From positions 1 to 41,254 of the forward strand of contig JAIXZE010000224.1 of NCBI GenBank assembly GCA_027489875.1: a DNA stretch of 41,254 nt, in the 5' to 3' direction. Numbering within the stretch: position 1 is the stretch's first letter; each line of letters begins with the position of its first letter. The DNA is from Verrucomicrobiales bacterium (GTDB lineage: Bacteria; Verrucomicrobiota; Verrucomicrobiia; Limisphaerales; UBA9464). This document shows, one piece after another, positions 23,170 to 39,562 of the stretch. Under the pieces are notes generated by a model. It was not told the DNA's origin. It saw only the letters and a program-made list of their open reading frames with translations, and did no database searches. The position numbers and the translations under genes were made by a program.

Positions 23170-23263
23170 TCCCGGAAACCAATCAGATTTCCAATACGTC
23201 GACCATACCCCAATCCGCCGAAGTCCATACGATCGTTGCCCGTGGGGGGAACGCGAGCGGGTT

Positions 23264-23330
23264 GGCGACGTCTTCACCCCCGTGTGAATGCTTCTGGAAA
23301 GGCGACGAGGACGTCGCCACCCCGTTCCAG
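23264..23330. repeat. MITE-like repeat, copy 1 (partial)
   Basis: The core hairpin GGCGACG-AGGA-CGTCGCC is flanked by CTGGAA and TTCCAG, giving a longer imperfect palindrome. It aligns to the copies at 32764-32870 and 35000-35122 across most of its length but lacks their right-hand terminal repeat. It lies in the divergent gap between the inositol-phosphatase-like and PhoD-like genes. Confidence 0.65.
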
Positions 23331-23339
23331 AACCGAGCT

Positions 23340-23366
23340 GTAGGCCGCGTGCCCCCACGCGGCGAA
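23340..23366 (+). repeat. REP-like palindrome, GTAG-footed
   Basis: GTAG followed by GCCGCGTG, a CCC loop and CACGCGGC. It has the same sequence as the plus-oriented halves at 37444 and 38387, and sits 10 nt after MITE-like copy 1. Confidence 0.75.
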
Positions 23367-25507: not shown

Positions 25508-25604
25508 CAGGCCCGGAGGGCCGAAAGACAGTAGCCCACGGCGTGAGTCGTGGGTGGACTTGGGTTGTGGGACCCCAGCCCCAGCGGGGCGACAGAACCC
25601 AATC
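25508..25604 (+). repeat. Structured multi-hairpin intergenic element, second GTAG-footed REP type
   Basis: Successive palindromes in about 97 nt: GGCCC-gga-GGGCC (25510-25522); GTAG then CCCACG, an 8-nt loop and CGTGGG (25531-25554); and GCCCC-agc-GGGGC (25578-25590) enclosed by TTGGGTT/AACCCAA (25560-25602). It lies between two convergent genes. It is the only copy in this window and differs in sequence from the GCCGCGTG family. Confidence 0.6.
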
Positions 25605-27253: not shown

Positions 27254-27280
27254 GTAGGCCGGGTACCCTCACCCGGCGCA
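27254..27280 (+). repeat. REP-like palindrome, GTAG-footed
   Basis: GTAG followed by GCCGGGT, an ACCCTC centre and ACCCGGC. It is a compensated variant of the unit at 23340: both arms change together, so the stem is preserved. It lies between the ankyrin and sigma-factor genes. Confidence 0.75.
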
Positions 27281-32763: not shown

Positions 32764-32870
32764 CGTTGGGAATGGATTCGGGGCGGGGATGCCCTGCTCA
32801 CCGTGGGAAAGGATTCGGAACGGCGACGAGGACCTCGCCACCCCGTTCCATGCAGGGGCAGCGTCGAGAG
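32764..32870. repeat. MITE-like repeat, copy 2 (left end degenerate)
   Basis: It shares with the 35000-35122 copy the blocks ATTCGGGGCGG and GATGCCCT, the core GGAACGGCGACGAGGA and a right end GGGGCAGCGTC. The left terminal repeat is not recognisable. It fills the middle of a 319-nt stretch without protein genes (32637-32955) directly ahead of tRNA-Val. The rest of that stretch shows nothing I can identify. Confidence 0.7.
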
Positions 32871-33756: not shown

Positions 33757-33783
33757 TGCGTCGCGTGAGGGCACACGGCCTAC
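33757..33783 (-). repeat. REP-like palindrome, inverted orientation
   Basis: On the minus strand: GTAG, GCCGTGTG, CCC, then CACGCGAC. Foot and length are the same as the unit at 23340, but the stem is slightly mismatched. It lies upstream of a heptamer array and tRNA-Tyr. Confidence 0.65.
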
Positions 33784-34999: not shown

Positions 35000-35122
35000 A
35001 TCTTGACACTGCCCACTTTTGGAAGGAATTCGGGGCGGCGATGCCCTCATCGCGTTGGGAATGGCTTTGGAACGGCGACGAGGACGTCGCCTCCCCGTTC
35101 CTCACGGGGGCAGTGTCCAGAT
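35000..35122. mobile_element. MITE-like element with 17-bp terminal inverted repeats
   Basis: Left end ATCTTGACACTGCCCAC (35000-35016) pairs with the right end 35106-35122, whose complement is ATCTGGACACTGCCCCC; 15 of 17 match, 10 of them contiguous. The centre is the hairpin GGCGACG-AGGA-CGTCGCC at 35074-35091. There is no coding capacity. No clear target-site duplication was seen. It lies in the divergent mutM-pta gap, where it could affect both promoters. Confidence 0.7.
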
Positions 35123-37375: not shown

Positions 37376-37380
37376 GGGGA

Positions 37381-37437
37381 GAGTTCCCAGTTGCCAGTTG
37401 CCAGTTGCCAGAACTGGGAACTGGCGACTGGCAACTC
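37381..37437. repeat. Inverted heptanucleotide array (CCAGTTG)n / (CAACTGG)n
   Basis: Left half: three CCAGTTG units after GAGTTC. Right half: TGGGAAC, TGGCGAC, TGGCAAC, then TCC. The two halves are inverted complements and would form a hairpin of more than 20 bp with a few mismatches. It lies 5 nt after the stop of the DRTGG gene and ends just before a REP pair. Confidence 0.75.
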
Positions 37438-37443
37438 CGCTTT

Positions 37444-37507
37444 GTAGGCCGCGTGCCCCCACGCGGCGAACTCCCTGAGCCTCGCCGGGTGAGGGCACCC
37501 GGCCTTC
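37444..37507. repeat. BIME-like inverted pair of REP units
   Basis: Plus unit 37444-37470 (GTAG, GCCGCGTG, CCC, CACGCGGC). The minus unit at 37481-37507 reads GAAG, GCCGGGTG, CCC, TCACCCGGC on the other strand. The two are homologous in opposite orientation with a 10-nt spacer. Heptamer arrays lie on both sides. Confidence 0.75.
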
Positions 37508-37512
37508 ACTCG

Positions 37513-37561
37513 GAGTTCCCGGTTCCCAGACTCCAGAACTGGGAACTGGTCTCTGGCAACT
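37513..37561. repeat. Inverted heptanucleotide array
   Basis: GAGTTCCCGGTTCCCAG and ACTCCAG on the left mirror CTGGGAAC, TGGTCTC and TGGCAACTC on the right, giving an imperfect long hairpin. It ends 6 nt from the stop of engB, so it lies in that gene's 3' region. Confidence 0.7.
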
Positions 37562-37567
37562 CCACCC

Positions 37568-38239
37568 TCACCACGGCGTATCGCGGGGGATCGGCGTCCG
37601 TGCCTGGACACGCTTGGCCTCGGGTTCGAGGACCGAGTCGATCAGGGCGAGCAGGGCGTTCCTCCCCTGCCCTTCAACGGACGAGCAGACCATCACCTCC
37701 GGCGGCGTATCGCTCAGTTGGAGCAGGTGGGCCTTCACCGCATCAATCGTCTTCTGCAACGCTGTCTGGCTGACCTTGTCCGCCTTGGTGAACACCAGCA
37801 CGAACGGCACCCCGTTCTCGATCAACCAATCAAGGAACTCCAGGTCGTTGCCCTGCGGCGGCAGCGAACCGTCCAGAAGGACGAACACGCATTGCAGGTT
37901 CGAACGTTCCTTCAGGTAATCCAGCACCGCCTTGCTGAACCGCCCACGCTCCTTCCGCTGCACACGGGCGTACCCGTACCCGGGCATGTCAACCAACCGC
38001 CAGCGGTTGTTGATCGTGAAGAAATTCAGGTGCTTCGTATGCCCCGGCGTGGGCGAAACACGCGCCAGATCCCGCTTCCCCACCAGCAGGTTCAGCAGCG
38101 ACGACTTGCCCACGTTCGAGCGCCCCGCGAAGGCAAACTCAGGCAGGTCCTCTTCCGGACAGGACTCCAGATCCGGCGCACTTCCGGTAAAGACAGCAGT
38201 CGAGGTGTTCATCAGTTCAAGCCGTACGTCCCCATTCAT
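37568..38239 (-). CDS. engB: Ribosome biogenesis GTP-binding protein EngB/YsxC
   Basis: Essential GTPase for 50S subunit maturation, about 223 residues. G1 is GRSNVGKSS at 39-47, with the family lead-in PEFAFAG. Next come SPTPGHTKHLNFF (switch I), G3 DMPGYGYARV at 84-93, G4 FTKADKVS and G5 SSVEGQGR. ATG 38239 was taken; 38212 (MNTSTAVFTG) is equally plausible. The C-terminus (QARTPIPRDTPW) is slightly extended. It is flanked on both sides by repeat clusters (37381-37561 and 38297-38455). Confidence 0.94.
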   Translation of the reverse strand: MNGDVRLELMNTSTAVFTGSAPDLESCPEEDLPEFAFAGRSNVGKSSLLNLLVGKRDLARVSPTPGHTKHLNFFTINNRWRLVDMPGYGYARVQRKERGRFSKAVLDYLKERSNLQCVFVLLDGSLPPQGNDLEFLDWLIENGVPFVLVFTKADKVSQTALQKTIDAVKAHLLQLSDTPPEVMVCSSVEGQGRNALLALIDSVLEPEAKRVQARTPIPRDTPW

Positions 38240-38296
38240 GCCAGAACCCCGCCCCCGACGCCTCCCCAATTCTCAACGATCTCCGATCGCCCCACT

Positions 38297-38318
38297 GGAG
38301 GCCGCGTACCCGGGGGAG
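38297..38318 (+). repeat. Degenerate REP-like unit
   Basis: GGAG followed by GCCGCGTACCCGGGG. It resembles a REP unit whose right arm has decayed. It sits directly ahead of the heptamer array at 38315. Confidence 0.4.
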
Positions 38319-38383
38319 TTCCCAGTCGCCAGTCTCCAGTTCCCAGAAATCTGGAATCTGGGAACTGGCATCTGGCAACTCCC
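38315..38383. repeat. Longest inverted heptanucleotide array
   Basis: Left half units TTCCCAG, TCGCCAG, TCTCCAG, TTCCCAG; right half AATCTGG, GAACTGG, CATCTGG, CAACTCC. The halves are inverted complements and would form a hairpin of about 30 bp. It is followed 3 nt later by a REP pair. Confidence 0.75.
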
Positions 38384-38386
38384 GTT

Positions 38387-38450
38387 GTAGGCCGCGTGCC
38401 CCCACGCGGCGGACTCCCTCAGCCTCGCCGGGTGAGGGCACCCGGCCTTC
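38387..38450. repeat. BIME-like inverted pair of REP units
   Basis: Nearly identical to 37444-37507, including the 10-nt spacer (one or two differences). GTAG unit at 38387-38413, inverted unit at 38424-38450. The protein-gene-free stretch 38240-38648 contains this repeat cluster; from 38471 to 38648 I see nothing recognisable. Confidence 0.75.
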
Positions 38451-39374: not shown

Positions 39375-39475
39375 TTCCTCGTGCACGCGACGAAGGGTGA
39401 AGGTTTTCGCTTCAGCTTTGAATCTTCCCTTGCGGAAACTGGCGACCCTTTCCCCAGCCTCCTGGCTACTCACCT

Positions 39476-39542
39476 GTAGACCGCGTGCCCCCACGCGGCG
39501 AAATCCATAAACCCCGCCAGGTGCAGTCCCCCCCGGCCTTCA
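39476..39542. repeat. BIME-like pair, right unit degenerate
   Basis: The left unit has GTAG, ACCGCGTG, CCC, CACGCGGC. The right, inverted unit (CCCGCCAGGTG ... CCCCGGCCTTCAC) has lost part of its stem. It lies in the divergent gap between the dnaJ-like gene and the membrane-protein pair. Confidence 0.65.
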
Positions 39543-39545
39543 CAC

Positions 39546-39562
39546 GGAGTTCCCAGTTTCCA
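39546..39562 (+). repeat. Half heptanucleotide array
   Basis: GGAGTTCCCAGTTTCCA matches the left half of the arrays at 37513 and 38315. The right half is missing. Confidence 0.5.

Follow-up and report, generated by a model that had tools for sequence, protein, structure and literature searches.

GNAG-footed REP hairpins in a Verrucomicrobiales genome and their linkage to a clade of RAYT transposases in related species

Repetitive extragenic palindromic (REP) sequences with a GTAG foot are an established repeat class. Twenty-four families of GTAG repeats were described in 2013, including those of Opitutus terrae, and the description covers dimers and heterodimers, degeneracy at the second and third positions of the foot, a patchy distribution, REPs that flank the genes of REP-associated tyrosine transposases (RAYTs) and the possible loss of RAYTs from some species (Di Nocera et al. 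2013, PMC3733652). The RAYTs characterised to date cut a folded single strand at a C|T site 5′ or 3′ of the hairpin, with strand transfer abutting the T; bases A3-G4 of the foot are thought to select the CT, and while the E. coli enzyme tolerates no changes in the foot, that of Marinomonas tolerates some (PMC8266576). Here we examine a set of short palindromes on a 41,254-nt stretch of DNA (the window), which is the entire contig C10 of a Verrucomicrobiales genome, G000, whose assembly comprises 6.2 Mb in 451 contigs and is 89% complete (11% missing). These repeats are very probably REP sequences organised as REP doublets forming hairpins (REPINs) or bacterial interspersed mosaic elements (BIMEs), that is, non-autonomous single-stranded DNA hairpins spread by a RAYT (TnpA-REP) of the Y1-HUH type. 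An initial annotation of the contig had already suggested a REP/RAYT system, and this reading is supported by the copy number, by the intergenic bias and by unit-flanked RAYTs in the same genus. As GTAG REPs have previously been described in Verrucomicrobia (PMC3733652), the system represents a new, unusually well-linked case of a known repeat class.

When the whole of G000 was searched with up to three mismatches, 447 + 449 copies of the unit (~896) were found, compared with 1 + 1 for the reversed pattern that served as the genome-wide control. The exact 26-nt core TGNAGGCCGSGTGCCCYCACSCGGCG, which runs from a T through the GNAG foot and the hairpin to a G, occurs 275 + 286 = 561 times, with 0 + 0 in the control. 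Rather than a handful of copies, the genome therefore carries about 900. Alignment of the 152-154 units from stretches totalling ~854 kb of G000, which were also used for the location counts below, gave a common layout of a T, a GNAG foot, eight stem pairs with a CCCY loop between the arms, and a closing G. The T at position -1 is present in 147 of 152 units and the G after the stem in 142 of 152, with a variable position -2 (C 63, T 55, G 28, A 6). Within the foot, G1, A3 and G4 are each conserved at more than 96%, and position 2 accepts any base (A 64, T 62, C 13, G 13), so that GTAG accounts for 59 and GAAG for 63 of 154 feet. This is looser than in most GTAG REP families: the GTAG-type foot proposed initially, with GAAG in the inverted partners, holds as a type, and the strict tetranucleotide gives way to GNAG with a degenerate second position. 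The foot, the copy number and the intergenic location are those of a GTAG REP sequence.

Two stem types can be distinguished, which differ by one swapped mid-stem base pair (C-G versus G-C). The CG type comprises 65 units, 41 of them with GTAG, and the GG type 81 units, 50 of them with GAAG. Within G000 this single switch is the compensated arm change that had been noted at the outset, and paired inner arms recur in related genomes. Across all loci examined, 345 units were selected by their outer three stem pairs only, ignoring the inner stem; the inner five pairs are nonetheless all Watson-Crick in 241 of the 345, in roughly twelve arm variants (GCGTG, GGGTG, GGGTC, GTGTG, CGGTA, CGGTC, CGCTG, CGATG, GCTTG and others), and the fold is therefore maintained. 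A search of Rfam with the unit gave no match.

In the window itself, a pattern search with up to three mismatches returned eight units, where dinucleotide shuffles gave an expectation of 0.00, and two broken units bring the total to ten. This agrees with the roughly ten palindromes of the initial annotation, the coordinates of which were correct to within a few bases. Two intact doublets have their feet outward. In REPIN 1, a CG-type unit with foot GTAG (37444..37467, + strand) and a GG-type unit with foot GAAG (37484..37507, - strand) are separated by a 16-nt spacer (37468-37483), and in REPIN 2 the corresponding halves of the same types and feet lie at 38387..38410 (+) and 38427..38450 (-), around a spacer that again measures 16 nt (38411-38426). 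All four units match both the pattern and the exact core, and the left half of REPIN 1 has a predicted single-strand DNA fold of -11.6 kcal/mol (z -4.7). The two spacers are alike at 14 of 16 bases; their equal length had been recognised, at a value of 10 nt that our measurement replaces. A third head-to-head pair was also claimed, and here the partner is decayed: the CG-type unit at 39476..39499 (+, foot GTAG, first stem pair lost, from the pattern search) is accompanied by the remains of a GG-type unit at 39516..39541 (-), read from the 39474-39552 repeat copy. The other units are a CG-type unit with foot GTAG at 23340..23363 (+, an exact match with its core at 23339-23364), a GG-type unit with foot GTAG and one unpaired stem position at 27254..27277 (+, pattern search), a single unit with foot GTAG and two mismatches at 33760..33783 (-), and a GG-type unit truncated where the contig ends (41236..41254, -), which is identical at 19/19 positions to the unit at 37483 (repeat family D10). 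No RAYT gene lies in the window, as had been stated.

The pairing seen in the window is general. We counted 36 close feet-outward pairs, whose spacers measure 13-16 nt except for a single one of 18 nt; the 32 in which both halves could be typed are all CG+GG, with 0 CG+CG and 0 GG+GG; four more contain an atypical half. A further 20 neighbours face each other with feet inward at 12-16 nt, and contigs C50 and C227 carry tandem BIME-like arrays of alternating units, with a period of 74 nt at C50:10449-10658. Inverted pairs, a short defined spacer and alternating clusters, the marks of REPINs and BIMEs, are thus all present. The spacers have kept their length and drifted in sequence. A nearly invariant hairpin next to drifted spacers of 13-16 nt could also be expected of a nucleoid or gyrase/IHF-type binding site selected by the host, for which mobility would be past and irrelevant, and the large size of a population that lacks a RAYT (see below) would fit such a role. 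However, the units are patchy within the genus, with 0 copies in G003, 3 in G007 and 6 in G008, unlike a chromosomal site that the cell needs, and we consider this explanation improbable; units that had already spread may have been recruited to such a role later.

The units are almost exclusively intergenic. Predicted coding sequence holds 1 of 154 units where 121 would be expected, an extreme bias. Strong hairpins confined to intergenic DNA could in principle be intrinsic terminators or mRNA 3′-end stabilisers selected at gene ends. Their density per kb of gap, however, is alike in unidirectional (1.38), convergent (1.15) and divergent (1.09) gaps, values that are biased as densities by the choice of contigs largely for carrying units, which leaves the coding/intergenic contrast unbiased. 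Within unidirectional gaps, 36 of 82 units lie nearer the upstream stop, giving no 3′-end preference. Termination or 3′ stabilisation is therefore unlikely to be the main reason for the location. The units also lack a T-tract, no terminator was called around REPIN 1 or REPIN 2, and copies range from 0 to ~900 in one genus, all of which makes a terminator function highly improbable.

The transposase missing from the window is found in related genomes. In G047:C420, a dense cluster of units surrounds a 173-aa RAYT that scores 85.9 bits against the RAYT profile NCBIfam NF047646 (cut-off 80 bits) and that, among solved structures, is closest to E. coli TnpA-REP (4er8). Aligned to the E. coli enzyme, it conserves W94, Q95, H101, R104, Y115 and N119, with D in place of E100, and the features of RAYT membership (HUH motif, catalytic tyrosine, guide-contact residues and N119) are present in the relatives' proteins. 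Homologues at ~50-60% identity include two from the same genus as G000, G006:C245 (95.2 bits) and G004:C383 (85.1 bits), both above the cut-off and both embedded in window-type units, the flanking arrangement of a REPtron. A RAYT flanked by these units, which the initial annotation had named as a homologue to look for, therefore exists within the genus and also beyond it, in G021, G064, G069 and G070. Overall, five RAYTs exceed the NF047646 cut-off and a sixth reaches 76 bits against 80. Between HuH and Y, the RAYT gene can carry REP insertions, which leave the reading frame open.

The linkage is also seen in the phylogeny of the transposases. When 30 RAYTs of the order were placed in a tree, the seven accompanied by GCC-type units grouped together (support 85/68; a single group in 86% of bootstrap trees), and none of 500 label shuffles performed as well. 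Other RAYTs of the order carry other units, either GTAGGGAC... or GGAG-footed. The RAYT genes of G031 (L166/L132) and G076 (L147) are flanked only by GGAG-footed repeats, GGAGGGCGTGGTTCCACCCACGCC, that is, by repeats with a non-GTAG foot. A separate case is found at G004:C14 (L073 8936-9306), where inverted GTAGCCGGCGGTGGAACACCGCCGG hairpins of another REP or IS-end family enclose a truncated Y1 gene. When a collection of 84,980 named species was scanned, all 17 of the best RAYT homologues had window-family units no further than 500 nt from the gene, compared with 1 among 59 less closely related RAYTs. All 17 belong to Verrucomicrobiota or Lentisphaerae. The REP-RAYT linkage is thereby extended to one clade in these two groups, with intact active-site residues.

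Several observations weigh against a REP/RAYT origin in G000. A search of this genome with the G006 RAYT at E<=1 found no cognate RAYT, and none was found in G001 (96% complete, 218 units) or G005 (91%, 89 units), so that the REP population of G000 is without the cognate RAYT in the same genome that a REPtron comprises. Contig ends carry units in 1 of 43 cases (background 1.3%) and are not enriched, which gives no support to the idea that the RAYT was lost through breaks in the assembly at the repeats. The majority of feet depart from GTAG, a change that would not be accepted by the E. coli RAYT (PMC8266576). The intergenic bias was obtained with a simple home-made dicodon gene caller that called 79% of the sample coding. 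Finally, no excision or insertion event was seen directly. At the EngB site, units adjoin the gene in G000 and differently made units do so in G004, with none in G006, G007, G008 and G003, and comparison of empty and occupied sites gave no mappable junction there, synteny being too poor. Since the RAYT was not found in G000, either it has been lost and the ~900 copies persist as orphans, or its gene belongs to the unassembled part. Two other apparent RAYT sequences were discarded: a RAYT fragment beside units at L101:13781-13990 is a 38-residue chance match, and a weak match in G000:C330 with five in-frame TAG codons was absent with a closer query.

Another Y1 protein of G000 could in principle mobilise the repeats. 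Three Y1_Tnp genes, and no other Y1 genes, were found in the genome: two are IS200-type TnpA (C58, intact, and C254, with its 5′ part replaced), and the third, situated at an end of contig C449, encodes a long RAYT-like protein that is partly similar to RAYTs (58.8 bits against the NF047646 cut-off of 80). However, none of the three has a unit within several kb, nor do most of the same-genus homologues whose flanks were examined; the IS200-type genes are flanked by different palindromes, and the C449 type is without the WQ....DH..R guide motif. Mobilisation by one of these proteins is thus very unlikely. The C58 gene has CCCCAACGGGG palindromes on both sides (L031 1300-1350 and 2260-2300).

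With spread by a RAYT of the clade described above as the preferred explanation, comparison can be made with the systems known so far. The units share with the GTAG super-family (PMC3733652) a GTAG-type foot, a 6-9 bp stem, a short loop, intergenic location, occurrence as singles, head-to-head and tail-to-tail dimers and clusters, heterodimers, a degenerate second foot position and a verrucomicrobial host; the stem and loop in G000 are GCCGSGTG-CCCY, and the likeness rests on the description of those families rather than on their consensus sequences. By the same description, the GTAG-17/19 dimers of O. terrae are set apart by spacers of 1-2 nt, compared with 13-16 nt here. Alternating heterodimeric REPs with a GTAG foot recall the E. 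coli BIMEs and TnpA-REP (a group 2 REPtron), as do the six RAYT residues listed above. Unlike E. coli, the stem here is a perfect 8 bp without a bulge, D replaces E100, foot position 2 is free and G000 has no RAYT. GTAG REPs flanking the gene and in-frame REP insertions between HuH and Y are shared with REPtrons of TnpA-Y1 subclass 2.4, although D at position 100 is reported for subclasses 2.5/2.7 (PMC6006769), and this likeness is one of features rather than of subclass profiles. As with the REPINs of Pseudomonas (PMC3116915), an inverted doublet is the abundant unit and has many dispersed copies; unlike in those REPINs, there are no homodimers and the halves differ by one base-pair switch. 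This one-base-pair heterodimer rule allows a test of the idea that homodimers are purged as long cruciform formers.

By analogy with the E. coli and Stenotrophomonas enzymes, on which the cleavage chemistry, the cut point and mobility itself are modelled here, we propose the following mechanism. Single-stranded DNA, for example the lagging-strand template, would let the hairpin fold, and the RAYT would bind hairpin and GNAG foot together. A3-G4 of the foot would select a C|T site, the enzyme would cut just 5′ of the conserved T, and the freed end might then be joined elsewhere in intergenic DNA; the usual mobile unit would be two opposite-oriented units of different stem type. Conservation of T(-1) is as expected for C|T cleavage with the T on the element side (PMC8266576). 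Since T(-1) is near-invariant, position -2 variable, A3-G4 conserved and foot position 2 free, the simplest interpretation makes T(-1) the first base of the element and position 2 dispensable for CT selection. A conserved T before the foot, itself preceded by a free base, provides a testable cut point. More tentatively, the G000 population might be polarised, its CG units being mostly GTAG and their obligatory GG partners mostly GAAG, perhaps with one substrate strand per doublet, and the ~900 copies, roughly 4-10 times the number in unit-rich sister species, might have been built by a RAYT with relaxed GNAG recognition or have persisted after RAYT loss.

Copy number and RAYT presence are not coupled within the genus. 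A cognate RAYT accompanies 238 copies in G006 and 120 in G004, and none was found with the 896 copies of G000, the 218 of G001, the 244 of G002 (66% complete) or the 89 of G005, nor in G003, G007 and G008. None of the 244 units of G002, counted with up to three mismatches, matches GNNGGCCGSGTNNCCNCACSCGGC exactly, and this species has its own unit variant. A genus with 0 to ~900 copies and a varying RAYT offers a natural series in which to ask what sustains REPs after the transposase is lost.

Other repeats accompany the units. Long hairpins of AGTTSCC heptads adjoin REP pairs, and of the 146 AGTTNCCAG motifs in the 854 kb, 101 are no more than 150 nt from a unit. In the window, one such hairpin of AGTTSCC repeats, which form an inverted repeat, stands beside REPIN 1 at 37383..37436 (~37378-37442; fold z -7.8), another on its other side at 37514..37563 (direct-repeat family D11, 82% identity) and a third beside REPIN 2 at 38317..38383 (repeat families D5 and D6). 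A second abundant palindrome, GGCGACG..CGTCGCC, has ~66 copies in the 854 kb, including 23247-23329, 32768-32850 and 35020-35102 of the window, and one copy (L032 ~700-760) is what replaces the 5′ part of the C254 transposase gene.

A further hairpin of the window, at 25509-25554 (-), matches the Rfam 'RNA' family RF01687, Acido-Lenti-1 (48.4 bits, cut-off 37), and its complementary strand is a GTAG-footed hairpin. The Acido-Lenti-1 motif was first listed as 'probably' an RNA and probably not cis-regulatory (PMC2864571). We found it in 69 of 96 related genomes, from a single copy to at least 56, a scoring cap that G000 reaches, and the copies frequently form inverted pairs; all 14 controls lack it. 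In G019 (L260) and G052 (L266), an IS200-type Y1 gene has such copies to either side; because only 2 of 20 tested Y1 loci are flanked in this way, the link is suggestive, and RF01687 may be a mobile-DNA hairpin of IS200-type elements rather than a small RNA.
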